A DNA stretch of 64,000 nucleotides from NCBI RefSeq assembly GCF_010183535.1, contig NW_026526124.1, forward strand, positions 1 to 64,000, in the 5' to 3' direction. Under the pieces are notes generated by a model. That model was given only the letters and a program-made list of their open reading frames with translations, was not told where the DNA came from and made no database searches. Both the position numbers and the translations under genes were made by a program. This document shows positions 1,801-44,183 of this stretch, piece by piece. The stretch's first letter is position 1. Each line of letters begins with the position of its first letter. The stretch is from Caenorhabditis remanei (taxonomy: Eukaryota > Nematoda > Chromadorea > Rhabditida > Rhabditidae).

Positions 1801-1812
1801 TAGTGTTACGCG

Positions 1813-2931
1813 ATGGAAAAGCTAGAGGAAACCCTTGAACGTCTCTATTCGGATCCCAAAAGTGGTCTACGTAGTGTGTCAACCCTCTTGAAGCAGGCTC
1901 GAAAAGTTCACCCCGACATTCAGAGGAAACAAGTTGTCGCCTATCTCCACACAAATGATGCCTACACTAGACATTTTCCAAAGTCCAAGTTCATTCAACA
2001 CAACAAATGGGTAGCTACAGGTCCGGATAGCCATCATATGGCAGATCTCGCCATGCTACCAACTCTAAAGTCCCACAACCAAGGTTTCTGCTACATTCTG
2101 GTGGTTGTGGACGTTTTTAGCCGCTATGTGTTTGCCAGACCACTCAAAAATAAAGAATGTGCCACAGTTACAAAGGCTTATGAAGAAATTTTGCGGTCAA
2201 AGTGGCGGATTCCAAGCAAGCTGTATGCCGATAAAGGTGAGTCTGAAATTCTTGATTAACCAAATTTTCAATTTCCAGGTACCGAGTTTATGGGCAAACA
2301 GTTTCGGAAACTCTGCAAAAACCTAGGCATCATTCACCTGAACCCCAAAAACACCAACGTGAAGGCTTGTTATGCCGAGAACGCCATCATGCGTATCAAG
2401 AGACAGCTGGAAAAATGGTTTACGACCACAAAGAGTTTTGAGTGGACCCGAGTTTTGCCTGAAGTCGTTGAAGGTCTTAATGCCAAATTCATGACGTCAC
2501 TTGGAACTTCTCCTGAAAAAGTTTCTTGGGAAAATGCTACTGAAATTTGGAAACGTCTCTATGGATCCCCCACAAGAAAAGACGCCAAATTCAAAATTGG
2601 GAACACGGTACGTGTCCTGATGGACAATTCACCATTCGCAAAGGGTACAAGAGCAAAGTGGTCTGAAGAAATTTTCAAAGTCATCAAGGTTATTCCATAT
2701 GACATCCCAGCATACATTTTGGCTGATACACTCGATCGAGAGGTGGATGGAATCTGGTACGAGGAAGAAATGGTAATCTACAACAAACCTGATGATTTCT
2801 ATGAAATTGACCGAATCATTAGAAAACGGACCAGGAAGGGCATTCGGGAGTTTTTGGTCAGTTTCAAAGGCTACGACGACTCATTCAACTCGTGGATCCC
2901 AGAATCGGATTTCAAAGACTATAATGGATAA
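1813..2931 (+). CDS. Maverick retroviral-type integrase with C-terminal chromodomain (two exons)
   Basis: Exon 1 is 1813-2236 and exon 2 is 2279-2931, giving 358 aa. The intron (2237-2278, 42 nt) has a GTGAGT donor and TTTCCAG acceptor and removes an in-frame stop. It restores DKGTEF, which carries the second catalytic Asp. The first Asp is in HHMADLAML and the Glu is in CYAENAIMR, so the DDE triad is present. An N-terminal segment with HPDIQ...YLHTND precedes the core. The last about 45 residues (YEIDRIIRKR...FLVSFKGYDDSFNSWIPESD) form a chromodomain, which in related elements is thought to direct insertion to marked chromatin. The gene appears intact although both upstream genes are decayed. 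The small membrane-protein ORF overlaps its stop. Confidence 0.9.
2237..2278 (+). other. Integrase intron, 42 nt
   Basis: GTGAGT...TTTCCAG intron inside the integrase core. Unspliced RNA would stop at TAA 2257-2259, truncating the protein before the catalytic Glu. The length and acceptor are typical of nematode introns. Confidence 0.85.
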
Positions 2932-3133: not shown

Positions 3134-3900
3134 CTTTTACATCACCCTAGTCAGTAATGCCCAGGCAACTTCATCAATTTCCAATTTCAATACACAACTT
3201 CCAAGCCCGATACACTTTGAACGTGAATTTGAAGTTGGCTTGTCTTCCATCATTTACCCATCCTCGCACGACTTGATTTCCAATCTACCAGAAGACAATG
3301 GATGGAATGAAAACGAGTTTGTCGTGGGGTTCGCAAATTCACCAATCAAGTGCAAAATTCAAAGTTGCACATTCTCAACACCCCAAGAGCTGACTGAAAT
3401 TCTGAATCATACACTATCCTCAAAATTGGCCAAAATTTTGAACACCACCAACACAACAATCGGAATTTTTGAGTATAACCCACTCTACAAACGGATCCTG
3501 ATTCAGACACACGAAAGCGTGTCACAAGTCCAACTTTCGGCAAGACTTGCATATTTTCTTGGCCACGATCGTGAAATCAAGACTTTTCCAACATTGGGAA
3601 AATATTCTACATTTTCGGGTTCCGATTTGATGTATGTGTATTCTGAAGACCTCGTGGAGCCCCAAACCATCAGTCACATGAAAGTCCCAATTTTAAAGGT
3701 TTATCAGCATGAACACTGGAAATGGAGCCAATGTTGAGCAAACCTTCACAAAACCGTTATATGTTAGAGTTCGACCAACTGACGTCTCACGTATAGGAAT
3801 CCAGATCAAGAACGACCGGGACCATTTCATTCCTTTCAATTCTGGAAAAGTAGTCATAGTGCTACACTTCCGACCCGTCAAAATTTCATTTGATGGCTGA
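3126..3900 (+). pseudogene. Minor capsid (penton-like) protein, one frameshift
   Basis: The frame opens at ATG 3126 with MSDFYITLVSNAQ and continues to a stop at 3735-3737; the remaining C-terminal part (NVEQTF...RPVKISFDG) is in the next frame to 3900. The N-terminal pattern (short FYI-LxSN start, N-Q-LPxPI, then 'EVGLSSIIYP') and the C-terminal 'YVRVRPTDV...FNSGKVVIVLHFRP' are typical of the Maverick minor capsid/penton-like jelly-roll family. The break is consistent with one extra T in the run at about 3699-3701. Copy B keeps only the C-terminal 47 residues, so the intact form cannot be checked in this window. The gene is followed directly by the basic core-like protein gene. Confidence 0.65.
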
Positions 3901-3933
3901 TCACTCAATCGGTTACAAAAGCGCTCTCCTACG

Positions 3934-4438
3934 ATGTACGTTGATTTTGATCCTGATCGCTCTGTTGATTGGGTTGCCTTCTTTGAGTGTGACCCAAATC
4001 AAGCAGGTTTTGGTGGATTTCGTGCCGGAAGTATCTATCAGCGGGGAAATGGCCCGTTTTCACAATTACTCGGAAAGCTCTTCATTTCGGCCGTACCTCT
4101 TCTAAAGCGGATGGGAGTCTCAGTTGGCCGCGAAGTCATGGATTCCTCACTTCGCGTTGCAAACGACGTGGCGGCTGGTGACTCGTTCAAACAGTCGCTG
4201 TCAAAGAACGCTTCAAATTCCTACAATTCACTTGTCAATCGAGCAATCGACAAACTTGGTCAAAAGGTGGACGCCGTAAACGACGAACAGTCAAACGTAA
4301 GAAGGTTGTGAAACGACGACGACGACGAACCACCAAGAAGCCCAAAAAATCTGAAAAACGGAAGATCACTCGCAAGAAACGTACCATTGCCAAGTCTTCA
4401 TCTCGCAAACGTGACATTTTTGGAAAATGGCAAAATTG
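3934..4438 (+). pseudogene. pVI/core-like basic virion protein, 1-nt deletion in copy A
   Basis: From ATG 3934 the frame encodes a Gly-rich segment (GGFRAGSIYQRGNGPFSQLL), an amphipathic LFISAVPLLKRMGVSVGREVM stretch and a helix up to AIDKLGQK, then shifts and stops at 4311. Copy B has one additional A in the corresponding A-run (about 4261-4266) and stays open through a very basic tail of R/K clusters (168 aa in all). Copy A is therefore broken by a single-base deletion that removes the basic tail. The layout (amphipathic front, Lys/Arg-rich tail) is that of Maverick proteins compared with adenovirus pVI or core proteins, so a capsid-interior DNA-contact role is plausible but inferred. Confidence 0.65.
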
Positions 4439-5704
4439 ATGAACAAGAGCACTCCGTGTGCTACAGCGAACATTTGCCTTTTCGACACACCACCCAGTCA
4501 AGTTGCATTCAACAAGGGAAAATGGATGACATTACCCCCATCAAACCCAATTGACGCTAAAGGTCCCTACACATTCAACATTTTTGATAGTGCCCACTTC
4601 TTCCAACTCAACAAAACTTACCTTTCATTCAAAGTTCATTTGGCTGGTATCAAGAAGAAGACTGACGGAAAACCGGTAGTCGTTTCTCATTCCAATTTCA
4701 TTGAGGCCACATTCTTCAATCAAGTCAAGCTCTCGTATAACAACGTCCCCGTCTACGACTCGTCACACTACGCCTACAAAGCGTACATTCAAACACTTTT
4801 AGGCGAAAACGATAAAACCAAGGAAGGCTTTCTTGGAGCTGCACGCTGGATCAACGATGAAGAAGATTTGAGTACTGTGAACCCGGCCAAAAGGACAGTT
4901 TCGGGTGATGACGGTCTTGACATTTGCACACCACTCTTCTTGGAACCATTCCAAACTGACCGTCTCTTGGTTCCACACATTAACATTCAATTGACTTTGT
5001 ACCGAAACACGGATGCCTTCTGTCTGGAATGCGTTGAGGAAGATGGACCAGCCAGAATGTACATCACTGACCTGAAACTACATATGAGAGCTATTGAGGT
5101 TGTCGCTTCAGCATCGATTGCCCTGGAAAATCATCTCAGAACCACACCGGCTCGGTATCCATTCACAGTCACGAAGGTAAAGGTGATTTCGATTCCTGAA
5201 GGACGAATGGAGCTCCCATTCAACATGCTCTACCAAGATATTTTACCACGCCGAGTTATTGTTGGTCTGATTTCCCCTGAAGCAATGGAAGGAAAATTTT
5301 CAAAGAATTGTTTCAATTTTGCTCACCACAACTTGGCCCAAATCCAATTGGACATTGCCGGAACAGTTTATCCTCCACAGCCGATTCAGTGCGACTTTAA
5401 CAACAAAAATTATGCTCAGGCATTCACCAGACTATACGAAGAGCTTGGGTGTGTGACCAGCAAATCATGTCCACGAATCACTTACAAAATGTTCCGAAGC
5501 GGCTTTGCATTCTACGTCTTCAACCTTGCAGCGATTGATGATTCAAATTCATGGGAACTCCTACAGAGCGGAAGCACTCAACTTTTCATCAAGTTCAACG
5601 AGAAGACACCGACGGGAGGCCTGAACGCGCTTGTTTTGTCGCAATTTGATGGGATGATCACGGTCGACGGTTTCCGCAATGTGATGATGAGTCATAGGCA
5701 CTAG
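4427..5704 (+). CDS. Major capsid protein (double jelly-roll), copy A
   Basis: A 425-aa intact ORF from ATG 4427 to TAG 5702-5704. The N-terminus (CLFDTPPSQVAF, then GKWMTLPPSN) followed by FNIFDSAHFFQLNKTYLSFK matches the opening of Maverick major capsid proteins: an 'xPPxQxx..W' start, then a strand ending in a (Y/F)xxLxxTyL motif. Length is at the short end of the family. It overlaps the preceding basic-protein frame by 12 nt and is followed without a gap by a TATA box. It would form the hexameric capsomers of the virion. It differs from copy B at one visible residue (FIEATFF here, FIGATFF there). This is the best-preserved structural gene in copy A. Confidence 0.75.
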   Translation: MAKLMNKSTPCATANICLFDTPPSQVAFNKGKWMTLPPSNPIDAKGPYTFNIFDSAHFFQLNKTYLSFKVHLAGIKKKTDGKPVVVSHSNFIEATFFNQVKLSYNNVPVYDSSHYAYKAYIQTLLGENDKTKEGFLGAARWINDEEDLSTVNPAKRTVSGDDGLDICTPLFLEPFQTDRLLVPHINIQLTLYRNTDAFCLECVEEDGPARMYITDLKLHMRAIEVVASASIALENHLRTTPARYPFTVTKVKVISIPEGRMELPFNMLYQDILPRRVIVGLISPEAMEGKFSKNCFNFAHHNLAQIQLDIAGTVYPPQPIQCDFNNKNYAQAFTRLYEELGCVTSKSCPRITYKMFRSGFAFYVFNLAAIDDSNSWELLQSGSTQLFIKFNEKTPTGGLNALVLSQFDGMITVDGFRNVMMSHRH

Positions 5705-5712
5705 TATAAAAG
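5705..5712 (+). promoter_or_regulatory. TATA box of the PAZ-like gene
   Basis: TATAAAAG starts at the base after the major capsid stop codon and lies 38 nt before the ATG at 5743. It is identical in copy B. This fits a dedicated promoter for the cargo gene instead of read-through from the capsid gene. Confidence 0.6.
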
Positions 5713-5742
5713 TGGTCGCGCACTTGTGCACAAGCACCAGTC

Positions 5743-6266
5743 ATGCTACCAGGAACTGCTCGCCCAATTACTCTCCCACCTGACTACACACCGCCAGAAC
5801 CAGGGGTAAGCCAAGCACACACGTCTTCAAAATTTATCTTTCAATTTTCAGTATGTCGACATCAACCTGGCAACCTATATGATGATGATGGGTCGTGTCG
5901 AGAGAATTTCTGCACAACAAATTCGGGAGATGAATCGCAAAATGCATGAATTGGGACCAACCAAAATTTGGAATTCATGCAATGGCTTCATAATTCCCCC
6001 TGGATCAGAATTGAGCCTGTAAGTTTTCGTTTCCACACATTCCAACCTCATTATCAATTTTCAGAGACGCAACACCACATTCCCACCACTTTGTCAACAA
6101 GTCGGCTTCAAAACCTCAACCACGACGCCGCCAAGTCTCAATCAAGCACTATTTTGAGGAAAAATACAAGATTCGCCTAAATTACCCAAATTCCCCCCTT
6201 TTGCGTGACCCATCGGGTTCCATGTTCCCCATTGAAACTGTTTGGTTCCGTTACCGTGTTTTCTGA
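5743..6266 (+). CDS. PAZ-like (Argonaute-related) small protein, three exons, copy A
   Basis: Exons 5743-5805, 5852-6018 and 6065-6266 (introns 46 nt each, GTAAG/TTTTCAG, phases consistent) give a 143-aa protein. The C-terminal 45 residues read VSIKHYFEEKYKIRLNYPN, then PLL, then MFPIET. This is the signature of the C-terminal half of a PAZ domain (V-x-x-YF-x-x-x-Y-x-I-x-L-x-YP-x-x-P ... (L/F)P-x-E), and the spacing is closest to nematode Argonautes. No MID or PIWI part is present, so it cannot slice RNA. The N-terminal half (proline-rich start, RVERISAQQIREMNRKMHEL helix, GFIIPPGSEL) is not confidently recognised but may be the rest of a diverged PAZ. It has its own TATA box, and an AATAAA overlaps its stop. 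PAZ domains bind small-RNA 3' ends; a decoy or suppressor role is inference. Confidence 0.6.
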
Positions 6267-6271
6267 ATAAA
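6266..6271 (+). terminator. Poly(A) signal AATAAA overlapping the PAZ-like stop
   Basis: AATAAA begins at the last base of the TGA stop and lies 3 nt before the protease ATG at 6274. The same arrangement is present in copy B. Gene packing is as tight as in a virus. Confidence 0.5.
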
Positions 6272-6273
6272 CT

Positions 6274-6764
6274 ATGGCTCTATCCACCAGTCAGTTGGAT
6301 TTGTTTCTTAGCACATGCAAAATTACACGACCACACTTTTTGGAGTCTTTCCATGTGATCAACACCCAACAATTTTCCGCCGACCATGCTCATTTATCTG
6401 GAATACAGCACCAAGTGATGATTCTGGAGAACATTGGGTAGCTCTCTGGGTTGACGACCGAAACTTTGGTTATTTTATGGATAGCAGTGGTGCAGACCCA
6501 CAATCAGAGTTTCGGGAATTTTTCACCAAAAACTGTGTCAAGTGGAAAAAAGTCTTTGACTCCCCCGTACAAGGACTCCTCTCGGACGTGTGTGGATTCT
6601 ACTTCATATACTTCTTGATCAGGAAAGCGATGAAACAGTCCAACAAGAAGATCAGAGCCCCCTTTTCCAGAAATTTGGCGAATAATGATAGACTAGTCGA
6701 GAAATGGGTCAAAAATCATTTGAAACGGTGCGAGTGTAGGGTATATAAACCGTTGGCCGCCTGA
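6274..6764 (+). pseudogene. Adenovirus-type cysteine protease, frameshifted in copy A
   Basis: The start at ATG 6274 is followed by a frame that stops early, because copy A has five T where copy B has six in the run at about 6337-6341. The rest is open in the next frame to 6764. It carries GEHWVALWVDD (catalytic His region) and SDVCGFYFIYFL (nucleophile Cys), which are the hallmarks of adenoviral/Maverick maturation proteases. In the virion this enzyme cleaves capsid and core precursors. The 3' end of the gene contains the TATA box of the next gene. Copy B has the intact 163-aa version. Confidence 0.85.
6742..6749 (+). promoter_or_regulatory. TATA box of the MYT1-finger gene
   Basis: TATATAAA lies inside the 3' end of the protease coding region, 41 nt before the ATG at 6783. 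Sequence and spacing are the same in copy B. Confidence 0.6.
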
Positions 6765-6782
6765 AACATTCACTCATTCACC

Positions 6783-8009
6783 ATGTTTGACGAAACTCCA
6801 CTCCCAACAGATCCACAATCTCCACCACCATCTCCTGTAATGCCCTTCCCACCACAGGATCAGCGCACCACGGGATTTAAGCCATATCCACAAATGATCC
6901 CACTTTTGGACGACAAGTTCCAGAATATGACTCTTGTGGGTACAATCAAAATTTACAAAGACGCACTCGGTAAGCATCATGTTGCTTCTGGGTGAACAGT
7001 CATCGCTTTCAATCATGAGCTGGCACAGAGGGAGGACACACGTTACACAAACAGTCCGCGAAAACGACTTCCAATCATTCATTCACCACTTTGCGAACCT
7101 GCAAAATGAATTCGTCCACAATTTCTTCCCTCCCCGTTATTCCAATTTTGCGTATGTCTTGGAAGAGCTCAATCGAGCTGGGTAAGCCTTTTCAAAGTTT
7201 TTGAAAATATTCATTATGCATCTTCAGATGACTTGAGAGGAAAGGCCGTATCGGTGTCCATTTGCCCAACTCCTGGGTGCCTTGGATGGGGCAATATGAA
7301 ACGCAGCAAGAATGCGTTTCACCGGACACAAGATGCATGCCCAATATGGCATCACGCTCAACGGAATAAGGTTGAATCGTCGGAGGTAAAATTAAAAATT
7401 TTCAAATTTCTTGTATATAGATTATTTTTTCAGTCACGCTCATTACTCGACAGATTCAACGAAATATTTCCAAACGGCAGTTTCCAGGTAACTTATAGGG
7501 GAATTCAGACATTGGGGGATCATTTATGGGGTGAAATTAGAAATGAAAACTTATAAATTTTCAGCCAGCCCCTATGCCAACAACACCACCTCCGGCCATG
7601 ACACGAATTGGACAACAACCACAACAATCGGCGGCACCAATTGGACCAATGCAGGTAATTTATAGAGGGAAATTGACCATTGGGGCACCATTTATGGGGA
7701 AATTAGCCATTGGGACGTCATTTATAGGGTTAGACATTTTCTGTCAACTTATTTGTGAATTTTCAGACTTTGCCACCACCACCAACGATGGCTCCAACTG
7801 GGATGTTTCCACCTCCAACTGGGATGTTCCCACCGCCACCGCTGCCATTGGTTTGGACCTTCTTTATCCCACCACCGCCGCCCATGTTCCAAGCTCCATT
7901 CGTTCCACCACCACCAGCAACATTCCAAGCTCCCCAGAACACTATGCCGACTCCTCCAATGGCCCCATCAATGGATGCCGAACCAAAACAGGAACCAGAA
8001 GATTTTTAA
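6783..8009 (+). CDS. Proline-rich protein with MYT1-like CCHC zinc finger, multi-exon, copy A
   Basis: Well-defined exons are 6783-6969, 7228-7385, 7434-7487, 7565-7654 and 7767-8009 (GT-AG, phases agree from 7228 onward). A middle exon ending at 7181 is needed, but its start is uncertain (7029 is phase-compatible; the frame reading NDFQSFIHHFANLQNEFVHN looks more protein-like but does not join cleanly to 7228). The N-terminus is proline-rich (PTDPQSPPPSPVMPFPP). The exon at 7228 encodes CPTPGCLGWGN, then FHRTQDACP: a C-x4-C-x13-H-x5-C finger closely resembling MYT1/NZF fingers (CPTPGCxGxGH...HRxxxxCP), with one extra loop residue and Asn for the first His. The tail is rich in PPP and GMFPPP repeats and ends EPKQEPEDF. 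MYT1 fingers bind DNA, so a transcription-regulator role is plausible. This protein is not a usual Maverick gene. Confidence 0.55.
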
Positions 8010-8039
8010 ATTTTCGCATAATTTTTTAATGGTCCCATG

Positions 8040-8045
8040 AATAAA
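8040..8045 (+). terminator. Poly(A) signal after the zinc-finger gene
   Basis: AATAAA lies 31 nt after the stop at 8009, a normal nematode spacing. It is conserved in copy B. Confidence 0.5.
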
Positions 8046-8081
8046 TTTGGTTATGTTGAAAAATGTTTTCTCCTTAATTTC

Positions 8082-8209
8082 AGATGTGGAGGGTTTAAGC
8101 CACGTTTCCTTGCAGATGTGGAGGGTTTAAGCCACGTTTCCTTGCAGATGTGGGGGGTTTAAGCCACGTTTCCTTGCAGATGTGGGGGGTTTAAGCCACG
8201 TTTCCTTGA
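8082..8209 (+). repeat. Four tandem 32-bp repeats at the inner edge of the terminal region
   Basis: Four head-to-tail copies of a 32-bp unit starting AGATGTGG(A/G)GGGTTTAAGC at 8082, 8114, 8146 and 8178; the first two have GGAGGG, the last two GGGGGG. The same four copies, inverted, are present in copy B (about 17975-18103). Telomere-like GGGTTTA occurs in each unit but is not tandem. Confidence 0.8.
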
Positions 8210-9057
8210 AGGCGAGAGATTCCCTCAGAAACGAGAGAGAGTCGGGGCGCAATGATATCTTCTGAGAGACGCCGAGAACAGGGGAGCCGAGCCGAGAGAC
8301 GATCTTCCCATGAGAGACACAAAGAAAACTTCGAGAAACTTCGAGGGAGCGGGCACCGGCCTCCATCTGGTATGAGAGACGCAGAGTTGCCTTCTCTCTC
8401 TCTCTCCACACCGGGCTCCCATCGAGGGGGTGCCAACGAGAGAGACGCGCCCGGTATGAGAGACGCAGAGACATTCCCCTCTCTCCACACACCGGGCGAC
8501 CCTCGAGGGGGCGAGGCGCCCTCGCGAGGGGGCGCGCGCGCTCGGTATATAAATATCATCTAACCCCTCAGTCTAGGTTACACAGTTGGCGCACCCGGTT
8601 GTGTGTCCAACCGGCAGTCGGTTCCCCTCCACCGGTTCGACACCCACCCGGGGCTCTAAATGAATTTCCAAAAAATCTGAAAATCTGAAAATCTGAAATT
8701 GCTGAAAACATCTGAAATTCTGAAAATCTGAAACTGCTGAAATTCTGAAATTGCTGAAATTCTGAAAATCTGAAAATTCTGAAAATTCTGAAAATTCTGA
8801 AAATCTGAAAATCTGAAAATTCTGAAAATCTGAAAATCTGAATATTCTGAAAATCTGAAAATCTGAGAATTCTGAAAATCTGAAAATCTGAAAATTCTGA
8901 AAATCTGAAATTCCATACCTCATTAAGGACCTCATTAAGGATAGGCTTAGGCACCTCATTAAGGATAGGCTTAGCGATAGGCACCTCATTAAGGATAGGC
9001 TTGTGGGACAGTGTAGTTGGCCAGACTAGAGAATGGCCAGAGATCAAAGATCAAACT
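8210..9057. repeat. Maverick terminal region, copy A
   Basis: Four blocks can be seen. 8210-8545 is GC-rich, with many GAGAGAC(G) motifs in direct and inverted form and several (C/G)GGG hairpins. TATATAAA is at 8546-8553. 8581-8655 contains a perfect 7-bp hairpin (CCGGTTG/CAACCGG). 8656-8916 is a TCTGAAAAT-type minisatellite, followed by three CCTCATTAAGGATAGG units and the end sequence to 9057. Copy B matches this block by block but has a different arrangement in the minisatellite. I assume it is the terminal inverted repeat, but the left end is not in the window. No protein-coding content is credible here. Confidence 0.65.
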
Positions 9058-17126: not shown

Positions 17127-18103
17127 AGTTTGATCTTTGATCTCTGGCCATTCTCTAGTCTGGCCAACTACACTGTCCCACAAGCCTATCCTTAATGAGG
17201 TGCCTATCGCTAAGCCTATCCTTAATGAGGTGCCTAAGCCTATCCTTAATGAGGTCCTTAATGAGGTATGGAATTTCAGATTTTCAGAATTTTCAGATTT
17301 TCAGATTTTCAGAATTCTCAGATTTTCAGATTTTCAGAATATTCAGATTTTCAGATTTTCAGAATTTTCAGATTTTCAGATTTTCAGAATTTTCAGAATT
17401 TTCAGAATTTTCAGAATTTCAGCAATTTCAGCAATTTCAGAGTTTCAGCAGTTTCAGATTTTCAGAATTTCAGATGTTTTCAGCAATTTCAGATTTTCAG
17501 ATTTTCAGATTTTTTGGAAATTCATTTAGAGCCCCGGGTGGGTGTCGAACCGGTGGAGGGGAACCGACTGCCGGTTGGACACACAACCGGGTGCGCCAAC
17601 TGTGTAACCTAGACTGAGGGGTTAGATGATATTTATATACCGAGCGCGCGCGCCCCCTCGCGAGGGCGCCTCGCCCCCTCGAGGGTCGCCCGGTGTGTGG
17701 AGAGAGGGGAATGTCTCTGCGTCTCTCATACCGGGCGCGTCTCTCTCGTTGGCACCCCCTCGATGGGAGCCCGGTGTGGAGAGAGAGAGAGAAGGCAACT
17801 CTGCGTCTCTCATACCAGATGGAGGCCGGTGCCCGCTCCCTCGAAGTTTCTCGAAGTTTTCTTTGTGTCTCTCATGGGAAGATCGTCTCTCGGCTCGGCT
17901 CCCCTGTTCTCGGCGTCTCTCAGAAGATATCATTGCGCCCCGACTCTCTCTCGTTTCTGAGGGAATCTCTCGCCTTCAAGGAAACGTGGCTTAAACCCCC
18001 CACATCTGCAAGGAAACGTGGCTTAAACCCCCCACATCTGCAAGGAAACGTGGCTTAAACCCTCCACATCTGCAAGGAAACGTGGCTTAAACCCTCCACA
18101 TCT
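17127..18103. repeat. Maverick terminal region, copy B
   Basis: Same blocks as in copy A, inverted: AG terminus, GGCCATTCTC segment, CCTATCCTTAATGAGG units, TTTTCAGA minisatellite (17268-17520), hairpin and TATATA, GAGAGAC-rich GC block, four 32-bp repeats. The minisatellite has a different order of 8-, 9- and 10-mers from copy A, with extra CAGCAATTT units. It is therefore one of the few places where the two copies differ visibly. Confidence 0.7.
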
Positions 18104-18175
18104 GAAATTAAGGAGAAAACATTTTTCAACATAACCAAATTTATTCATGGGACCATTAAAAAATTATGCGAAAAT

Positions 18176-19402
18176 TTAAAAATCTTCTGGTTCCTGTTTT
18201 GGTTCGGCATCCATTGATGGGGCCATTGGAGGAGTCGGCATAGTGTTCTGGGGAGCTTGGAATGTTGCTGGTGGTGGTGGAACGAATGGAGCTTGGAACA
18301 TGGGCGGCGGTGGTGGGATAAAGAAGGTCCAAACCAATGGCAGCGGTGGCGGTGGGAACATCCCAGTTGGAGGTGGAAACATCCCAGTTGGAGCCATCGT
18401 TGGTGGTGGTGGCAAAGTCTGAAAATTCACAAATAAGTTGACAGAAAATGTCTAACCCTATAAATGACGTCCCAATGGCTAATTTCCCCATAAATGGTGC
18501 CCCAATGGTCAATTTCCCTCTATAAATTACCTGCATTGGTCCAATTGGTGCCGCCGATTGTTGTGGTTGTTGTCCAATTCGTGTCATGGCCGGAGGTGGT
18601 GTTGTTGGCATAGGGGCTGGCTGAAAATTTATAAGTTTTCATTTCTAATTTCACCCCATAAATGATCCCCCAATGTCTGAATTCCCCTATAAGTTACCTG
18701 GAAACTGCCGTTTGGAAATATTTCGTTGAATCTGTCGAGTAATGAGCGTGTCTGAAAAAATAATCTATATACAAGAAATTTGAAAATTTTTAATTTTACC
18801 TCCGACGATTCAACCTTATTCCGTTGAGCGTGATGCCATATTGGGCATGCATCTTGTGTCCGGTGAAACGCATTCTTGCTGCGTTTCATATTGCCCCATC
18901 CAAGGCACCCAGGAGTTGGGCAAATGGACACCGATACGGCCTTTCCTCTCAAGTCATCTGAAGATGCATAATGAATATTTTCAACAACTTTGAAAAGGCT
19001 TACCCAGCTCGATTGAGCTCTTCCAAGACATACGCAAAATTGGAATAACGGGGAGGGAAGAAATTGTGGACGAATTCATTTTGCAGGTTCGCAAAGTGGT
19101 GAATGAATGATTGGAAGTCGTTTTCGCGGACTGTTTGTGTAACGTGTGTCCTCCCTCTGTGCCAGCTCATGATTGAAAGCGATGACTGTTCACCCAGAAG
19201 CAACATGATGCTTACCGAGTGCGTCTTTGTAAATTTTGATTGTACCCACAAGAGTCATATTCTGGAACTTGTCGTCCAAAAGTGGGATCATTTGTGGATA
19301 TGGCTTAAATCCCGTGGTGCGCTGATCCTGTGGTGGGAAGGGCATTACAGGAGATGGTGGTGGAGATTGTGGATCTGTTGGGAGTGGAGTTTCGTCAAAC
19401 AT
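18176..19402 (-). CDS. Proline-rich MYT1-finger protein, copy B
   Basis: Same multi-exon gene as in copy A (ATG at 19402, stop at 18176-18178), with the last exon at 18176-18418 and identical intron borders. One substitution is visible near the exon after the finger (TRSLL here, SRSLL in A). The CPTPGC...HRTQDACP finger is unchanged. The uncertain middle exon has the same sequence as in copy A, so if it is a real break it predates the duplication. Confidence 0.55.
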
Positions 19403-19420
19403 GGTGAATGAGTGAATGTT

Positions 19421-19912
19421 TCAGGCGGCCAACGGTTTATATACCCTACACTCGCACCGTTTCAAATGATTTTTGACCCATTTCTCGACTAGTCTATCAT
19501 TATTCGCCAAATTTCTGGAAAAGGGGGCTCTGATCTTCTTGTTGGACTGTTTCATCGCTTTCCTGATCAAGAAGTATATGAAGTAGAATCCACACACGTC
19601 CGAGAGGAGTCCTTGTACGGGGGAGTCAAAGACTTTTTTCCACTTGACACAGTTTTTGGTGAAAAATTCCCGAAACTCTGATTGTGGGTCTGCACCACTG
19701 CTATCCATAAAATAACCAAAGTTTCGGTCGTCAACCCAGAGAGCTATCCAATGTTCTCCAGAATCATCACTTGGTGCTGTATTCCAGATAAATGAGCATG
19801 GTCGGCGGAAAATTGTTGGGTGTTGATCACATGGAAAGACTCCAAAAAAGTGTGGTCGTGTAATTTTGCATGTGCTAAGAAACAAATCCAACTGACTGGT
19901 GGATAGAGCCAT
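19421..19912 (-). CDS. Adenovirus-type maturation protease, copy B, intact
   Basis: A 163-aa ORF, ATG at 19912. Catalytic features: His in GEHWIALWVDD, Asn/Asp-rich strand DDRNFGYFMDSSGAD, and Cys in LLSDVCGFYFIYFL, in the order of the adenovirus protease family (peptidase C5-like). Length is a little short of adenoviral enzymes (about 200 aa) but usual for Mavericks. It would cleave capsid/core precursors during virion maturation. Copy A carries a one-base deletion in a T-run near the start and V instead of I in the His motif. It lies between the PAZ-like gene (3-nt gap after the poly(A) signal) and the MYT1-finger gene. Confidence 0.85.
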   Translation of the reverse strand: MALSTSQLDLFLSTCKITRPHFFGVFPCDQHPTIFRRPCSFIWNTAPSDDSGEHWIALWVDDRNFGYFMDSSGADPQSEFREFFTKNCVKWKKVFDSPVQGLLSDVCGFYFIYFLIRKAMKQSNKKIRAPFSRNLANNDRLVEKWVKNHLKRCECRVYKPLAA

Positions 19913-19919
19913 AGTTTAT

Positions 19920-20443
19920 TCAGAAAACACGGTAACGGAACCAAACAGTTTCAATGGGGAACATGGAACCCGATGGGTCACGCAAAAGGGGGGAATTTGG
20001 GTAATTTAGGCGAATCTTGTATTTTTCCTCAAAATAGTGCTTGATTGAGACTTGGCGGCGTCGTGGTTGAGGTTTTGAAGCCGACTTGTTGACAAAGTGG
20101 TGGGAATGTGGTGTTGCGTCTCTGAAAATTGATAATGAGGTTGGAATGTGTGGAAACGAAAACTTACAGGCTCAATTCTGATCCAGGGGGAATTATGAAG
20201 CCATTGCATGAATTCCAAATTTTGGTTGGTCCCAATTCATGCATTTTGCGATTCATCTCCCGAATTTGTTGTGCAGAAATTCTCTCGACACGACCCATCA
20301 TCATCATATAGGTTGCCAGGTTGATGTCGACATACTGAAAATTGAAAGATAAATTTTGAAGACGTGTGTGCTTGGCTTACCCCTGGTTCTGGCGGTGTGT
20401 AGTCAGGTGGGAGAGTAATTGGGCGAGCAGTTCCTGGTAGCAT
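19920..20443 (-). CDS. PAZ-like small protein, three exons, copy B
   Basis: Exons 20381-20443, 20168-20334 and 19920-20121 correspond base for base to copy A, with the same splice sites and the same 143-aa product. The TATA box is at 20474-20481 and AATAAA overlaps the stop. Keeping the frame, both introns and both signals in two copies is consistent with a functional gene, although the copies are too similar for this to be strong evidence of selection. Confidence 0.6.
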
Positions 20444-20473
20444 GACTGGTGCTTGTGCACAAGTGCGCGACCA

Positions 20474-20481
20474 CTTTTATA
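20474..20481 (-). promoter_or_regulatory. TATA box of PAZ-like gene, copy B
   Basis: TATAAAAG on the minus strand, directly after the capsid stop, mirroring copy A. Confidence 0.55.
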
Positions 20482-21759
20482 CTAGTGCCTATGACTCATC
20501 ATCACATTGCGGAAACCGTCGACCGTGATCATCCCATCAAATTGCGACAAAACAAGCGCGTTCAGGCCTCCCGTCGGTGTCTTCTCGTTGAACTTGATGA
20601 AAAGTTGAGTGCTTCCGCTCTGTAGGAGTTCCCATGAATTTGAATCATCAATCGCTGCAAGGTTGAAGACGTAGAATGCAAAGCCGCTTCGGAACATTTT
20701 GTAAGTGATTCGTGGACATGATTTGCTGGTCACACACCCAAGCTCTTCGTATAGTCTGGTGAATGCCTGAGCATAATTTTTGTTGTTAAAGTCGCACTGA
20801 ATCGGCTGTGGAGGATAAACTGTTCCGGCAATGTCCAATTGGATTTGGGCCAAGTTGTGGTGGGCAAAATTGAAACAATTCTTTGAAAATTTTCCTTCCA
20901 TTGCTTCAGGGGAAATCAGACCAACAATAACTCGGCGTGGTAAAATATCTTGGTAGAGCATGTTGAATGGGAGCTCCATTCGTCCTTCAGGAATCGAAAT
21001 CACCTTTACCTTCGTGACTGTGAATGGATACCGAGCCGGTGTGGTTCTGAGATGATTTTCCAGGGCAATCGATGCTGAAGCGACAACCTCAATAGCTCTC
21101 ATATGTAGTTTCAGGTCAGTGATGTACATTCTGGCTGGTCCATCTTCCTCAACGCATTCCAGACAGAAGGCATCCGTGTTTCGGTACAAAGTCAATTGAA
21201 TGTTAATGTGTGGAACCAAGAGACGGTCAGTTTGGAATGGTTCCAAGAAGAGTGGTGTGCAAATGTCAAGACCGTCATCACCCGAAACTGTCCTTTTGGC
21301 CGGGTTCACAGTACTCAAATCTTCTTCATCGTTGATCCAGCGTGCAGCTCCAAGAAAGCCTTCCTTGGTTTTATCGTTTTCGCCTAAAAGTGTTTGAATG
21401 TACGCTTTGTAGGCGTAGTGTGACGAGTCGTAGACGGGGACGTTGTTATACGAGAGCTTGACTTGATTGAAGAATGTGGCCCCAATGAAATTGGAATGAG
21501 AAACGACTACCGGTTTTCCGTCAGTCTTCTTCTTGATACCAGCCAAATGAACTTTGAATGAAAGGTAAGTTTTGTTGAGTTGGAAGAAGTGGGCACTATC
21601 AAAAATGTTGAATGTGTAGGGACCTTTAGCGTCAATTGGGTTTGATGGGGGTAATGTCATCCATTTTCCCTTGTTGAATGCAACTTGACTGGGTGGTGTG
21701 TCGAAAAGGCAAATGTTCGCTGTAGCACACGGAGTGCTCTTGTTCATCAATTTTGCCAT
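20482..21759 (-). CDS. Major capsid protein, copy B
   Basis: Intact 425-aa ORF, the same as copy A except FIGATFF for FIEATFF. The N-terminal PPSQVAF...GKWMTLPP and the following FNIFDSAHFFQLNKTYLSFK segment are typical of the family's first jelly roll. The start overlaps the end of the basic-protein ORF by 13 nt, which supports the chosen ATG. Confidence 0.75.
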   Translation of the reverse strand: MAKLMNKSTPCATANICLFDTPPSQVAFNKGKWMTLPPSNPIDAKGPYTFNIFDSAHFFQLNKTYLSFKVHLAGIKKKTDGKPVVVSHSNFIGATFFNQVKLSYNNVPVYDSSHYAYKAYIQTLLGENDKTKEGFLGAARWINDEEDLSTVNPAKRTVSGDDGLDICTPLFLEPFQTDRLLVPHINIQLTLYRNTDAFCLECVEEDGPARMYITDLKLHMRAIEVVASASIALENHLRTTPARYPFTVTKVKVISIPEGRMELPFNMLYQDILPRRVIVGLISPEAMEGKFSKNCFNFAHHNLAQIQLDIAGTVYPPQPIQCDFNNKNYAQAFTRLYEELGCVTSKSCPRITYKMFRSGFAFYVFNLAAIDDSNSWELLQSGSTQLFIKFNEKTPTGGLNALVLSQFDGMITVDGFRNVMMSHRH

Positions 21760-22253
21760 TTTCCAAAAATGTCACGTTTGCGAGATGAAGACTTGGCAAT
21801 GGTACGTTTCTTGCGAGTGATCTTCCGTTTTTCAGATTTTTTGGGCTTCTTGGTGGTTCGTCGTCGTCGTCGTTTCACAACCTTCTTACGTTTGACTGTT
21901 CGTCGTTTACGGCGTCCACCTTTTTGACCAAGTTTGTCGATTGCTCGATTGACAAGTGAATTGTAGGAATTTGAAGCGTTCTTTGACAGCGACTGTTTGA
22001 ACGAGTCACCAGCCGCCACGTCGTTTGCAACGCGAAGTGAGGAATCCATGACTTCGCGGCCAACTGAGACTCCCATCCGCTTTAGAAGAGGTACGGCCGA
22101 AATGAAGAGCTTTCCGAGTAATTGTGAAAACGGGCCATTTCCCCGCTGATAGATACTTCCGGCACGAAATCCACCAAAACCTGCTTGATTTGGGTCACAC
22201 TCAAAGAAGGCAACCCAATCAACAGAGCGATCAGGATCAAAATCAACGTACAT
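21747..22253 (-). CDS. pVI/core-like basic virion protein, copy B, intact
   Basis: A 168-aa ORF, ATG at 22253. Order of parts: acidic/aromatic start (MYVDFDPDRSVDWVAFF), Gly-rich YQRGNGPF, amphipathic LLGKLFISAVPLLKRMG, a helical region to AIDKLGQK, then about 55 residues very rich in Arg and Lys (clusters such as KRRRRRTTKKPKK). The front half resembles Maverick proteins compared with adenovirus pVI; the tail resembles DNA-condensing core proteins. It probably sits inside the capsid against the DNA. Copy A lacks the tail because of a one-base deletion. Confidence 0.65.
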   Translation of the reverse strand: MYVDFDPDRSVDWVAFFECDPNQAGFGGFRAGSIYQRGNGPFSQLLGKLFISAVPLLKRMGVSVGREVMDSSLRVANDVAAGDSFKQSLSKNASNSYNSLVNRAIDKLGQKGGRRKRRTVKRKKVVKRRRRRTTKKPKKSEKRKITRKKRTIAKSSSRKRDIFGKWQN

Positions 22254-22286
22254 CGTAGGAGAGCGCTTTTGTAACCGATTGAGTGA

Positions 22287-22427
22287 TCAGCCATCAAATG
22301 AAATTTTGACGGGTCGGAAGTGTAGCACTATGACTACTTTTCCAGAATTGAAAGGAATGAAATGGTCCCGGTCGTTCTTGATCTGGATTCCTATACGTGA
22401 GACGTCAGTTGGTCGAACTCTAACATA
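22287..22427 (-). pseudogene. Minor capsid protein C-terminal remnant, copy B
   Basis: Only the last 47 codons (YVRVRPTDV to KISFDG) remain. The upstream sequence is replaced at 22428 by the palindrome arm. An ORF runs across the junction for 86 codons, but its first part is arm sequence and not a capsid gene. Confidence 0.8.
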
Positions 22428-25400
22428 GAACCTCAAGGTTGGAAGAGACACGCAGAACAAAACATGTGTTACCGAACAAATTGGAAACCAACTTTTCAGA
22501 GTGTTGAAAATCTTGCATTTCAGTTCTCTAATATAACTGTGATTCAAGATAAATTCAATCTGGATTCTGAAGACAAACGATACTATTAGTATGAAACTAT
22601 GATTTTTGAAAATTGGTGAAGGAGGAGTTATGAAACTTGGCGTTTGGCTGGAAGAGAGATTCCCATGCCCATAATGAATACTGCGTCAGTCTCAGGTGTT
22701 TTCAATATCGGTTTTATAGTTGTTCTCGCTATTAGTCACGGTCATTTTTAAATGCTAATGCTTTAAAAAACTCGGTCTACACATTCTGATTTGTATCATA
22801 TGAAGAGAATTCTAAAGCATAGTTTCTTGGTTTTTTTTTGTGCTTCTATAATCATGAATTCCTTTATAAATGTATAAAAAGTAATCAGTCTTTGATTTTT
22901 TGGGTTCACTTCTTGAATCAACAACTAGAAAAAAGCTAATAAGGAAGGCATTTTGACAAAAGTGATGCGTTACCGGTTATATGTTTGTACGTCTTCCCAA
23001 ATAGAAACAGTCACGCAAATACTTGGATTCAAATGAAACTACAAAGTCGCGTGATAGAAGATTGGATTGTCATGAGTTCATATGAGCATTTACGAGCTGC
23101 TCATAGGAACATTTCAATTATTTTTTGAAGCAAACATGATATCATTAAATAATCTGTTGCCACTCTCTTTCTGATAAAAATTGATGCAAATAAATGGTGC
23201 CTATCTGTTTATGTTAGTATCCATATCAGGTTTCCAAAACATTGCCTCCCACTTTTCTCGACTGTTCAAATATTTTCTAATTTCAACAGGTTTCACATTA
23301 CTTTTTCATTTCTGTTCAGCAATAATACACCGAGAGGAGTTGTGCTCCAAACTCAAGGTCCGCGTGGTGTCCTATAAAATCATGGCAAACTAAATTACAC
23401 CAGAAATCAATTATTGTTTGACATATTCACACCGTTAATTTGTGGAGATCATTTCAGAATCTTCTCGTTTATCCGAGGTTTGATCTTTTTGTCCACCAAT
23501 CTCTATTTTGAGATTTTTCCCTATAATTCATTAAATTCATTTCGAGTAACAATCCCAATTATTGCACTTTTACTTCTTATTAATCTGATAGCGAAATCCA
23601 GAATTTTAGATTAAGCAACCGATCCCAGGGGGAAGGAGAGAGTGTATGGCGCTGAGATACCTTTTTCGCAGGACTAATTTCTTCTTCTATTTTAGTTTTT
23701 TGGCTTTTTCACAACTTCCTCTTCTTTTCTTCCTTTTTTCTATGTTTTCCGTTAACTAGTTTTACTGATGAAAGTTTATTGATTTCGTTCCTATCATCGG
23801 GTTCATCTTATGAACTGGGTCTCTGTGGTGTCTTTTTCCAGTCCGCAGCATTGTTACGTTTTCACGTTAATTCAAAGTGAACCTATGCAAACGCGCTTTG
23901 TTGAGACTTCGTTTTTGGTCATATTATTTGAAGCCTAAATCGCATTTTTAAATATTTTTTGTTCTTTCAAAGAATCGACCTTTCTTGATTATATTTCTCC
24001 TTAAAACAATTTCTTGGCAAAATTTATTATTTCGAACAAAAACATTTAGGTAAGCGATATTTCTCAAAAAGGCGCGTTTCCATATCGTGCGTTTTTCGCA
24101 TTCATCTGTCTTAAAAAACCGAAATAAACTGTTTTATAACTTTCGAAACCCCAGAGTTCAGTCGCACACATTCTTAACAAGTGGTTAGAAAGATTTTTGT
24201 CCATGCGTTCTCAGCGTTCCTTGTGTCTTTCCGTTTTGACAAATGAACTCAAATATTCTATTGAGTCAACATCGGATGATTCGGAAGACGAATTCTTGGT
24301 AAACGAAAAGATCAAATATAGAATGATAATTGGACATGAAGGGATTTCGATGTTGAAAAGTGTTATCTCCACCGACGTCAGCAACAATACATACCACTGT
24401 TTTAGGACGCTGGTTCACTTATGATATAGTAAGTGAAGAACAGATGTGGAGGGACAGTCGGTAATCTTCAAACTGAACTTGAAACTGAAATAATCAGAGT
24501 TGAGTGAAAAAGGTGGGGTTCCTTGAATACAGAGGGAATTGTAACATCAAATAGAAAGAAAACAAGATCTAGATAAGTAGAAGCTGTAGCTGATGTATGA
24601 ATCGAAATGTTTCACATCAGTTGGGACTTTTTGATTGCAGGAGAAAAGAAAAAGGGATTATTTGAAAATGGGTCTCATATCAGGTTTCCAATACATTGCG
24701 TTTTAATTTTTCTCGATAACGCTGGTCATCCCCCAAGAGTGTTCCTAAATCAAACACTGCAATTTCCCAATTAAAGCATCTGACTTTGTGATGGCCGGCC
24801 ACAAACCGTCCCCATTTTATAGAATATTTGAGTTCATTTGTCAAAACGGAAAGACACAAGGAACGCTGAGAACGCATGGACAAAAATCTTTCTAACCACT
24901 TGTTAAGAATGTGTGCGACTGAACTCTGGGGTTTCGAAAGTTATAAAACAGTTTATTTCGGTTTTTCAAGACAGATGAATGCGAAAAACGCACGATATGG
25001 AAACGCGCCTTTTTGAGAAATATCGCTTACCTAAATGTTTTTGTTCGAAATAATAAATTTTGCCAAGAAATTGTTTTAAGGAGAAATATAATCAAGAAAG
25101 GTCGATTCTTTGAAAGAACAAAAAATATTTAAAAATGCGATTTAGGCTTCAAATAATATGACCAAAAACGAAGTCTCAACAAAGCGCGTTTGCATAGGTT
25201 CACTTTGAATTAACGTGAAAACGTAACAATGCTGCGGACTGGAAAAAGACACCACAGAGACCCAGTTCATAAGATGAACCCGATGATAGGAACGAAATCA
25301 ATAAACTTTCATCAGTAAAACTAGTTAACGGAAAACATAGAAAAAAGGAAGAAAAGAAGAGGAAGTTGTGAAAAAGCCAAAAAACTAAAATAGAAGAAGA

Positions 25401-40494: not shown

Positions 40495-40638
40495 GAGGTT
40501 GAGGACGTTAACATCAAAATGATGGAAGAAAGAGGATCTAGAAATGTACAGTAAGGAACGGTTCAAGTTAAGATCAGCGGCGTTTGTTGAATCATGTCGT
40601 TCGTTTGCAAACTTGTTTGGCTGTCATTGGTAACTTGT
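40495..40638. repeat. Direct repeat of the BEL element 3' internal end (copy 2)
   Basis: Matches 39428-39572 almost perfectly; homology breaks at the Env stop (CTTGTCATTTC here, CTTGTCCTTTG there). Confidence 0.8.
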
Positions 40639-43600
40639 CATTTCAGCGTTCCTGTGATCTTGAAGTACTCAGTGTATCTTCCTCCACAGTTGATTGAGCA
40701 CACTTTTCTGAATCCGGCATATTGAGCAAAGAATGTGATGTTTGTGGATTTTCCATTGGGCGAGCATGGTACGGTAAACATGTCTTTGTCGCAGACAATG
40801 TTTCCAATGACTTCTTTCATAGAAGAGGTGCACTTGATCTCCGCTTGTCCTCCAGATGCACAATTGTAGCATCCTTGGATTTGTTTTGCTTTGATGTAGC
40901 ATTTGTCGGATGAAATCAGGATAGAGGTAGTGACATTGTCTTCCAATGTGAGCACTAGTCCGATGGTCACCTCGTCGTTGATGGTGGCTACCGCCGACTC
41001 ATTTTCAGCTTTCAGGGTCCAATGTCCTTCTCTGAGTGGGAGGCGTTTCTGGATGGTGTTGAACTGAGTTTCCAGATCGTCCTCTTCGCATGTGCAAACC
41101 ATGGAATCTTCGGCTGGCTCACAAGTGCATCTTTCGTTGAGTTGGCACGTCTCGTCCCCTTCTTTTCTTTTGCATTGGATGCTTGGCAAACGATATGGTT
41201 GCCACAAGGCGACTTGTGACTTGTCGTTTCTGATTAACCAGTTTTCCAGAATTGGCGATACTGGTTTGTTAATCCAAGCGACGGTGACACTGATGTCTTG
41301 AAGCGATCCAGGAAAACTGACTGGCAATGTCATGGTTTCTGTTTTTTGATGGCGATCGCCATTCAATCTTGTTACCGACATTTCGATGACCAGTCTTTCT
41401 CTCCATTCGGCACATTGAAAGATCTCGAGCGTTCCGTTGTTCTTTTCTTTTCCGTAGATTCTGTAGAAGAGACATCCTGGGGACGGGAAGAAACATGAAC
41501 AACCTAGTCCTCCACAGCTTTCGGTACAGTAGGTGTTCCCAATGTGATTGTTGGCTTCACCGAGTTCTGGTACCATTGAATTTTGTGTAATGTTGAGGCA
41601 CTTGTCTGCTACACATGATCCTGTATGGGCGCAGCGTTTAGCACTCCATACATGAATTTGAGCGTCCTTTGTGAAGGTGATTGTGTTTTTCAGGCATTCC
41701 ATTCTGATCTCGAGAAATCTGATTCTGATTTCTTTTGTGGTCATTCCATTCTGCTCGATCCGGAGGCATGCTTCCTTGTTGAAAGATCCAATGGTCAGAT
41801 GCTCTTGGGTTACCAATTTGCATGTTTTTGGTTCTTCTTTGGTGCAAATCTTTTCTCCTTGAGACAGAAGATTAACTTCCTGACAGGCGTTGCTCGAGTG
41901 GATCATTGAGAAGAACATCAGGATAGTCACCATTATTTCCCAATTGATTTTTCCGCGTCGGGAAGATTTGCGAGGAATGAATCCACGGCATTTCGAGATG
42001 ATCATTTGGAGCAATTTGTAGATCATGATCAGTGGTGCTCCCATGGATATTTTCACCTTGAATATGCAGTACACTATCATCGCAATGATATAGAGGATGA
42101 CTGCAAATCCAGCGAGAGCCATGTACGGATGACACTCCGGATTGAGGACATTTGTTGTGCAGATCACACAGTCGATGCTGTCACATGTAGAAACAGCATG
42201 GCAATTCAGTTCATATACTGTGACCGCGTTGGCCATCAGTATTTTTGCAGTTGCATGGTGATCCGTAATTTTCAGAGCAGGTGGGATCCAAACATCTGCG
42301 TAGTTGCTGTTCCAGGTCATTCGAGGTCTTGATGTGCAATAGTTCTGTACGCACATTTCGAAGCTTTCATATTCCAGATTGACACGAATCCCAGTTGGCG
42401 TGCATTCTAACGGCGAGATAGCCATCGTTGGTCCAATGATGATTGACAGAATCACCATAATCATGAACTTTGACCATGGGAAGTTCACCAATGTAGAGAT
42501 TGCAGAAGCGACTTGAAAGCGATCTTCGTGTTGGTCTTCGTTGTAGTTGACTCTTTTCTGCTTTCTCAAGTTATACCTCTTGACCATGTCCTTTGTTTGG
42601 ACTTCAGGAGCATCTGGAACTTGCTCTTCTGGAAGAGAAACCCCGTTGGTTTCGTTCTTCCGTTGGGTGTCTTCACCATCAAGCTCCAATGGGACAACCA
42701 AATTGATGGGGCGTTTGATGATGTTTCCTTTGCTGGTTCTCAAGTGTACTTCACGGAGAACACCATCCGATGATGGATCAGCTTTGACAATTTCTCCCAG
42801 TTTCCAGTAGTTTCGTGGAAGATCCGGGTCTGTGATGAGGATTACCTGACCAACTGCTGGAGTCTCGGATTTTCCTCTTTTGTTGTTCATTCGCAGCTTG
42901 TGGGTGCTTCTCAATTCAGCCAAATAAGTTGTTTTCCACGTTTGCCAAGCGGTTTCGACAACTTTGGAGACAGATTTGATGGCAGCGATAGCCTCATCTT
43001 TAGCGAGCGAAATTTCTCCTGGTGGAGCGTAGTCTTCATTCATTTCCAATGTGGAATCCATTGGATAGTTGACTTGAATGTTCGGGTAGACAAAATCGAT
43101 AGGTCTCAGGACAAATCCGCTGTCCAGATTTTGTCCAACGTATGTGAGGGGTCTGGAGTTGAGAGCTGCAGCGACCTCAGTGAATGTTGTGTGGATATCG
43201 TCCAATGATAAGATGCTCCGCCCAATACCTTTGAACATTGATTGTTTGATTGAGCGCATCATTCTTTCATACATTCCTCCTTGCCAGGGGGCGTATGGCG
43301 TGATAAATTTCCACTCGATCTTTGCGTCTCCAAGAAATTTCTTCACCTCATTGTTGAAATTGCAGTTTTTTGTTGTTGTTTCTGCAATGTCTTGGAGGAT
43401 CTTGTCGGCTAAAATGAAATGTGGAGCGTTATCACTGACGATAGCATTTGGTTTTCCACAGAGGCTGACAAAGCGTTGAAAGGCTTTCAGAAAACAGCTT
43501 GTATCCGGTCGGACTATCAATTGGATGTGGACTAATCTTGTTGTGGCACAGATGAATAGGCATCCCCAGCACGAAGCGACAGTATTGTCTTCTTTTCGGT

Positions 43601-44183
43601 AGGACATCGGACCAAAATAATCGAGTCCTGTGTGTTGGAAAGGCGCTGTTCCTTTCACTCGGTGCTCTGGCAGATCCACCATGTCTGGGTATTTGAATGG
43701 CGGCTTGTTGTATCTTTGACAGGCGACACACTTTGACAAGAGCGATTTCACTTGTTGGCGAAGATTTGGGATCCAGAATTTCTTCCTGACCTCCGTCATC
43801 GTTTGCTGTTCATTGCAGTGCCATTTTCCATGAGCTTCTCGTATGATCAGCTTTGCCAGTTGGGTTTTTGGTTCGATCAATATTGGAAATCTGGCCATTT
43901 TTGCATTGTCCATGTGTTTGAGTCTTCCACGACAGATGATGATCTTGTTGTCATCAAGTTCCAGATTCAGATCATTCCAGGAATGTTTCTTCCTTAAGCT
44001 GATTTGAGCTTGATGCTCTCGAATGATCCGTATTTCCGCTGCGCTTTGTTCTGATGCGGAAATTGGTGGATTTCCTTCTGGAACTTTTTTGAGCTCAGCG
44101 ATGGTTGTCAGCAGCCGTTCTTTCACGTCTTGTGAAAGAGGATTAGCGAATTTAGCGATGGCTCTCATTGTGTACGCGATCAC
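40638..44183 (-). CDS. BEL element integrase and Env (phlebovirus Gc-like) part of the polyprotein
   Basis: Open for 1181 codons after the TAG at 44304-44306. The integrase has an HHCC zinc motif (His in REAHGKWHC, then CVACQRY), a DDE core with D in HTGLDYFGPM (about 43620), D in IVSDNAPHF (about 43430) and E in GGMYERMMRS (about 43270). After the integrase comes a linker (EEQVPDAPEVQTKDMVKRY) and hydrophobic spans (MIMVILSIIIGPTMA; ALAGFAVILYIIAMIVYCIF; VTILMFFSMI). A Cys-rich ectodomain follows, with a Gly/Cys/aromatic loop (CGGLGCSCFF...GCLFY, about 41480-41520) characteristic of the phlebovirus Gc/class II fusion protein family. The ORF ends without an obvious C-terminal membrane anchor. 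Start codon use is moot, because the frame continues upstream through the stop. Confidence 0.85.
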   Translation of the reverse strand: MIAYTMRAIAKFANPLSQDVKERLLTTIAELKKVPEGNPPISASEQSAAEIRIIREHQAQISLRKKHSWNDLNLELDDNKIIICRGRLKHMDNAKMARFPILIEPKTQLAKLIIREAHGKWHCNEQQTMTEVRKKFWIPNLRQQVKSLLSKCVACQRYNKPPFKYPDMVDLPEHRVKGTAPFQHTGLDYFGPMSYRKEDNTVASCWGCLFICATTRLVHIQLIVRPDTSCFLKAFQRFVSLCGKPNAIVSDNAPHFILADKILQDIAETTTKNCNFNNEVKKFLGDAKIEWKFITPYAPWQGGMYERMMRSIKQSMFKGIGRSILSLDDIHTTFTEVAAALNSRPLTYVGQNLDSGFVLRPIDFVYPNIQVNYPMDSTLEMNEDYAPPGEISLAKDEAIAAIKSVSKVVETAWQTWKTTYLAELRSTHKLRMNNKRGKSETPAVGQVILITDPDLPRNYWKLGEIVKADPSSDGVLREVHLRTSKGNIIKRPINLVVPLELDGEDTQRKNETNGVSLPEEQVPDAPEVQTKDMVKRYNLRKQKRVNYNEDQHEDRFQVASAISTLVNFPWSKFMIMVILSIIIGPTMAISPLECTPTGIRVNLEYESFEMCVQNYCTSRPRMTWNSNYADVWIPPALKITDHHATAKILMANAVTVYELNCHAVSTCDSIDCVICTTNVLNPECHPYMALAGFAVILYIIAMIVYCIFKVKISMGAPLIMIYKLLQMIISKCRGFIPRKSSRRGKINWEIMVTILMFFSMIHSSNACQEVNLLSQGEKICTKEEPKTCKLVTQEHLTIGSFNKEACLRIEQNGMTTKEIRIRFLEIRMECLKNTITFTKDAQIHVWSAKRCAHTGSCVADKCLNITQNSMVPELGEANNHIGNTYCTESCGGLGCSCFFPSPGCLFYRIYGKEKNNGTLEIFQCAEWRERLVIEMSVTRLNGDRHQKTETMTLPVSFPGSLQDISVTVAWINKPVSPILENWLIRNDKSQVALWQPYRLPSIQCKRKEGDETCQLNERCTCEPAEDSMVCTCEEDDLETQFNTIQKRLPLREGHWTLKAENESAVATINDEVTIGLVLTLEDNVTTSILISSDKCYIKAKQIQGCYNCASGGQAEIKCTSSMKEVIGNIVCDKDMFTVPCSPNGKSTNITFFAQYAGFRKVCSINCGGRYTEYFKITGTLK

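Follow-up and report, generated by a model that had tools for sequence, protein, structure and literature searches.

Argonaute proteins grip the 3' ends of small RNAs with their PAZ domain, which to our knowledge is known only within Argonaute and Dicer. Here we describe a PAZ-only gene carried by a Maverick element of Caenorhabditis remanei, in a stretch of 64,000 nucleotides (contig NW_026526124.1, positions 1 to 64,000; the window). Its product resembles the PAZ of Argonaute and PIWI proteins (PF02170; human AGO1, 1si2; HIWI1, 3o6e) in its fold across residues 19–143, in its motif and, in one clade of elements, in three pocket residues (Y-K-Y), but it stands alone, without N, MID and PIWI domains, and belongs to a mobile element. 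PMC10680173 reports that nematode Mavericks contain a fusogen as well as cargo genes of host origin, and that worm Mavericks carry genes between species. The captured host genes wosp and krma, described there as cargo of Caenorhabditis Mavericks, are similar in that a virus-like element acquires host genes; the PAZ gene is instead, in one clade, a fixed part of the capsid-protease block. Viral suppressors of RNA interference (RNAi) are comparable in proposed, putative function only. We know of no such suppressor made of a stand-alone PAZ, and our literature search named none among the matches listed. Nor was a PAZ in Mavericks found described among the matches listed, which bounds any claim of novelty, and by a term search the main text of a study of double-jelly-roll viruses (PMC11071308) mentions neither PAZ nor Argonaute. 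A fold search of BFVD gave 102 matches up to E 10, the best at 0.41 and none at or below 0.001; the PAZ protein had no match in PHROGs, and a scan of IMG/VR with P0009 found no viral relative.

The window gene is real, intact and spliced, with a product of 143 amino acids. Both introns read GTAAG...TTTCAG, AATAAA overlaps the stop codon, and the C. remanei gene model P0001 (GCK72_016119, 143 amino acids) is 99% identical to the product over its full length. The preliminary description of this DNA had proposed two canonical introns, a 143-residue product and a poly(A) signal, and the splice sites, the open frame and the P0001 match bear this out. The TATA box that it also reported is present in the window gene, but it is no trait of the family: a universal TATA box was rejected, as the motif occurs at 7 of 21 loci examined, all of the window's own subfamily.

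By its fold the product is a PAZ domain and not an Argonaute, and we regard it as nearly certain that it consists of one PAZ domain and little else. A confident structure model predicts a PAZ fold across residues 19–143. While the preliminary description was right to name PAZ, the likeness is not confined to the C-terminal end, where it had been placed, but takes in the whole protein from residue 19. PAZ is the sole Pfam match of the 143-residue product, which agrees with the absence of MID and PIWI domains noted earlier. The PF02170 score of the window protein (23.7 bits) lies below the curated cut-off of 28.8, and those of relatives reach 27.1; PAZ was nevertheless the top Pfam family in all 11 relatives scanned. 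Two relatives carry a precomputed PF02170 label and automatic PAZ labels exist for P0008, P0009 and P0010; the domain had been flagged by machine before, apparently with no note, as far as seen, of its Maverick context. Across the whole genome, PF02170 gave 62 matches, 34 above the cut-off and 28 below, and coordinates identify 26 of these 28 as Maverick-borne copies of the PAZ-only gene, which speaks against a chance likeness; one more adjoins the host locus L016 and one has no assignment. A weak PAZ match of 23.9 bits at G000:C4:21807047-21807244 (in L042) is near no capsid locus.

The gene recurs in related elements. Searching the genome at the DNA level located 23 matching places, and at four of these the full length is identical. 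We grouped the 91 capsid matches manually: 51 loci belong to the window's own capsid clade (near clade; 51–100% identity) and 24 to a distant one (far clade; 26–30%). These loci were compared with PAZ and protease positions from separate genome searches. In the near clade, a PAZ match follows the capsid gene at a distance of 106–447 bp, on the same strand, at 42 of the 51 loci, including all 39 with a protease; at the nine loci without PAZ, neither a protease nor a complete capsid match was detected. Looking at other Mavericks, as the preliminary description had proposed, thus shows within this genome a PAZ gene that is near-universal in one capsid clade, where it always adjoins the capsid gene and precedes the protease. 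We read the gene at 21 loci, the window and 20 near-clade loci taken from the best-scoring end, and found it intact and spliced, with intron phases 0 and 2, at every one; the first intron measures 144 nt at three of them.

In the far clade the PAZ gene adjoins the capsid gene too, but in the opposite orientation, and 19 of the 24 loci have no detected PAZ within 5.5 kb behind the capsid (genes of near-clade neighbours excluded). At one far-clade locus, where about 900 bp behind the capsid gene were read, no PAZ gene was seen. A Pfam scan of one far-clade protein, P0016, gave no PAZ match. As observed around L072 (a far-clade capsid locus on C4), this clade mixes loci with and without a capsid-adjoining PAZ gene, a pattern that may reflect gain, loss or unseen divergence. 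Relatives of the gene occur in C. remanei, C. brenneri, C. nigoni and C. tropicalis. Ratios of nonsynonymous to synonymous divergence (dN/dS) were 0.15–0.39 in 16 of 32 between-type pairs and are rough, because dS exceeded 1.3 in these and was saturated in the other 16. Between element types, PAZ was less conserved (49–62% identity) than the capsid (63–74%) and the protease (69–80%) in eight of eight comparisons; in two within-type comparisons PAZ (99%) was not less conserved than either.

We consider it probable that the PAZ exons were taken from a host Argonaute gene. When 30 host PAZ matches were scored with the two clade profiles, the near-clade profile ranked L024 (29.5 bits) and L021 (26.2) first, followed by L012, L019, L030, L013 and L023, and the far-clade profile ranked L021, L022, L024 and L023. 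The loci L021, L023 and L024, best or near-best in sequence, have Piwi domains and are full Argonautes, unlike the PAZ-only gene, and L023 and L024 have E at the K313 position. These two also have a phase-2 intron at about the same place, shortly upstream of the motif, with both junction ends seen. The split codon and the S-V of the motif are separated by 12 and 14 residues in L023 and L024; the far-clade gene has 14 residues there and the near-clade gene 24. A PIWI-type source is disfavoured by the near-clade profile (4.3 bits for L015 and 6.8 for L025, both verified as PIWI-type, with L026 within 4–7, against 29.5 for L024), as is a Dicer source (4.5 bits for the Dicer locus L029). Yet the best row of the Foldseek search is the PAZ of HIWI1 (3o6e), so the fold alone cannot choose the type of source.

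In the tree, all 12 Maverick rows group together (support 88/82), which is consistent with one capture. Several observations sit less well with an Argonaute origin. The near-clade profile ranks L012 and L019 above L023 and L030, and L022, which has no phase-2 intron, comes second with the far-clade profile. With 53 columns the tree cannot place the source: the Maverick rows fall beside L011–L014, which lack the intron, while a constrained grouping with five hosts taken as intron-bearing was not rejected (p 0.31), nor was AGO-type kinship (p 0.07). The Argonaute derivation put forward in the preliminary description is hence favoured over PIWI-type and Dicer sources by the profile scores, and left unplaced by the tree. 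On C6, a host Argonaute (L038) lies 6 kb from a Maverick PAZ; a reading of this Argonaute as cargo was considered and rejected. C40 carries the same Argonaute with its flanks, and its match to L039 begins outside the stretch common to L039 and the Maverick copy L048, so we take L038 to be a neighbour of an insertion. At G000:C6:3254000-3273000 (L039, L040), L038 has a near-clade Maverick within a few kb, and C40 (L041) is apparently without the element; the difference suggests that the insertion is polymorphic or the region duplicated.

According to PMC5896489, contacts of the AGO1 PAZ to the last nucleotides include H269, Y277, F292, Y309, K313, Y314 and Y336. In the PDB-match alignment, read with an inferred one-residue chain offset, Y106, K110 and Y111 are the equivalents of Y309, K313 and Y314, and F86 is, by alignment, probably that of F292. 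Y-K-Y is present in 21 of 21 distinct near-clade proteins, as against Y-[KR]-Y in 12 of 24 host PAZ rows of the same genome, which argues that the near clade kept it under constraint. The 3'-end pocket whose conservation the preliminary description had looked for is kept in part: the Y336 position is M or L, and for the hairpin contacts H269, R275 and Y277 no placement was found in the alignments. In addition, two of the three Y-K-Y positions are changed in the far-clade homologue, to V or A and to D; this homologue is not basic (isoelectric points 5.2 and 7.0), unlike the near-clade protein; and its structure model predicts no ordered hairpin (residues 67–86 below 50 in pLDDT, the model's per-residue confidence). 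The Y-F motif, moreover, has a structural role too. All of these count against small-RNA binding, and because the far clade lacks two of the three pocket residues, the basic charge and the ordered hairpin, binding of 3' ends cannot be what the family as a whole does.

As to function, retention in related elements suggests, without proving, a tool against worm RNA silencing. In the scheme that we favour, an ancestral Caenorhabditis Maverick would have acquired its PAZ exons from a host Argonaute gene, together with the introns. An active element would then make a PAZ protein that competes with host Argonautes, either because its Y/K/Y/F pocket holds small-RNA 3' ends or because it occupies a partner that host PAZ domains use, and small RNAs would silence the element less strongly. 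Our confidence in this putative decoy function is tentative and falls somewhat short of even, and the statement as a whole (a PAZ-only gene, captured from a host Argonaute and acting as a putative silencing decoy) is held just as tentatively; we still rate the decoy highest among the functions considered. One difficulty for it is that near universality and a position in the capsid-protease block also fit a part of the virion or of replication.

The PAZ fold could instead be a protein-binding scaffold, in particle assembly or maturation or for some other host protein, with nucleic-acid binding lost or incidental and the aromatic residues holding the fold. This we think unlikely. It would suit a gene that keeps its capsid neighbour in both clades although the orientation is opposite, and a far clade that loses pocket residues while the fold family stays recognisable; the invariance of Y-K-Y in the near clade, set against the host rows, speaks against it, and the many far-clade loci without a detected PAZ imply that not every such particle requires one. 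Slightly less likely again is recruitment for replication or packaging, in which PAZ would bind the 3' single-stranded ends of the linear element DNA during protein-primed replication, before integration or at capsid loading. The constant capsid neighbour, the place before the protease and the basic charge in the near clade would fit such a role, as would the PDB title of 1si2, an AGO1 PAZ with a deoxynucleotide overhang. A far-clade form that is not basic and has lost two of three pocket residues fits it poorly, as does the faster divergence of PAZ than of capsid and protease between element types. A short motif set in an unrelated fold is a very improbable account of the likeness: the sequence match is limited to the C-terminal third, below the Pfam cut-off, and the family profile matches Argonautes in the PDB weakly (E 0.024 to 0.6; 5 of 16 rows are unrelated proteins), but the fold search rejects a chance motif, with a confident model matching PAZ over residues 19–143, and PAZ is the best Pfam family in every relative scanned.

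The features of the element in the window are collected in Table 1. Two Maverick pieces, at 3756-9057 and 17127-22431, form an inverted 5.3-kb repeat of 99.8% identity, and the ORF layout agrees with the earlier placement of the PAZ gene between capsid and protease genes in both copies. These copies are truncated. Their inverted layout could be real or an effect of assembly; a satellite of about 99-bp units (13.7–17.1 kb) lies within the region that separates them. The capsid-type open reading frame (ORF) had no match in PDB or the phage collection. Its homologue in L039 (63% identical) matches the double-jelly-roll family PF21738 (E 3.6e-5; 23.6 bits, cut-off 27), the L039 protease exceeds the PF00770 cut-off (22.2 bits against 21.3), and L039 also carries an integrase core (rve) and a P-loop ORF, a candidate packaging ATPase. 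Judged by these sequence matches, the genes of the window and L039 combined are a Maverick/Polinton gene set. The open frame of the protease is 150 amino acids in copy 1 and 164 in copy 2, and the copies differ near its start. An ORF 3' of the protease, at 7110-7556, encodes a C2HC zinc finger (PF01530, E 1.9e-8). Elsewhere in the window, two very long minus-strand ORFs (40638-44303, 1221 amino acids; 44697-48095, 1132 amino acids) are perhaps a candidate retroelement.

Table 1. Coordinates of the PAZ-only gene and of Maverick features in the window.
Feature	Position	Strand	Basis
Integrase core	1804..2259	+	rve E 5.4e-7, 30.2 bits (cut-off 32.6)
Chromodomain ORF, probably integrase end	2260..2931	+	PF00385 E 1.5e-8, above cut-off
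Capsid-type ORF, 429 aa (amino acids), upstream neighbour	4415..5704	+	No Pfam match itself; likeness via L039 relative
TATAAAA	5705..5711	+	38 nt upstream of ATG
PAZ-only gene, copy 1	5743..6266	+	3 exons, 143 aa; splice sites, open frame, NCBI gene model, Pfam, fold
Exon 1, residues 1-21	5743..5805	+	Splice sites, open frame
Intron 1, phase 0	5806..5851	+	Phase common to 21/21 loci read
Exon 2, N-terminal half of PAZ fold	5852..6018	+	Splice sites, structure model
Intron 2, phase 2	6019..6064	+	Phase common to 21/21 loci read; counterpart in host L023, L024
Exon 3, with Pfam PAZ match and Y106/K110/Y111	6065..6266	+	Pfam, alignment
Adenain-type protease ORF, downstream neighbour	6312..6764	+	PF00770 E 0.0041, below cut-off
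Protease ORF, copy 2 (164-aa open frame)	19421..19915	-	ORF list, protease search
PAZ-only gene, copy 2	19920..20443	-	100% identical to copy 1
Capsid-type ORF, copy 2	20482..21771	-	ORF list, capsid search

If the gene is a fixed member of the element's gene set, a mobile element would have taken over part of the very silencing machinery directed against it. A bolder version, which we hold more loosely than the decoy itself, is that an entire Maverick lineage relies on a PAZ-only protein that derives from a single capture out of a worm Argonaute. Its gene would be an old counter-silencing gene, aiding survival and movement between species in hosts whose small-RNA defences are very strong, and the far clade would since have repurposed the protein. 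With the PAZ-only gene, the way in which worm Mavericks handle silencing by PIWI-interacting RNAs (piRNAs) and small interfering RNAs (siRNAs) becomes directly testable, in a genus with excellent genetics.
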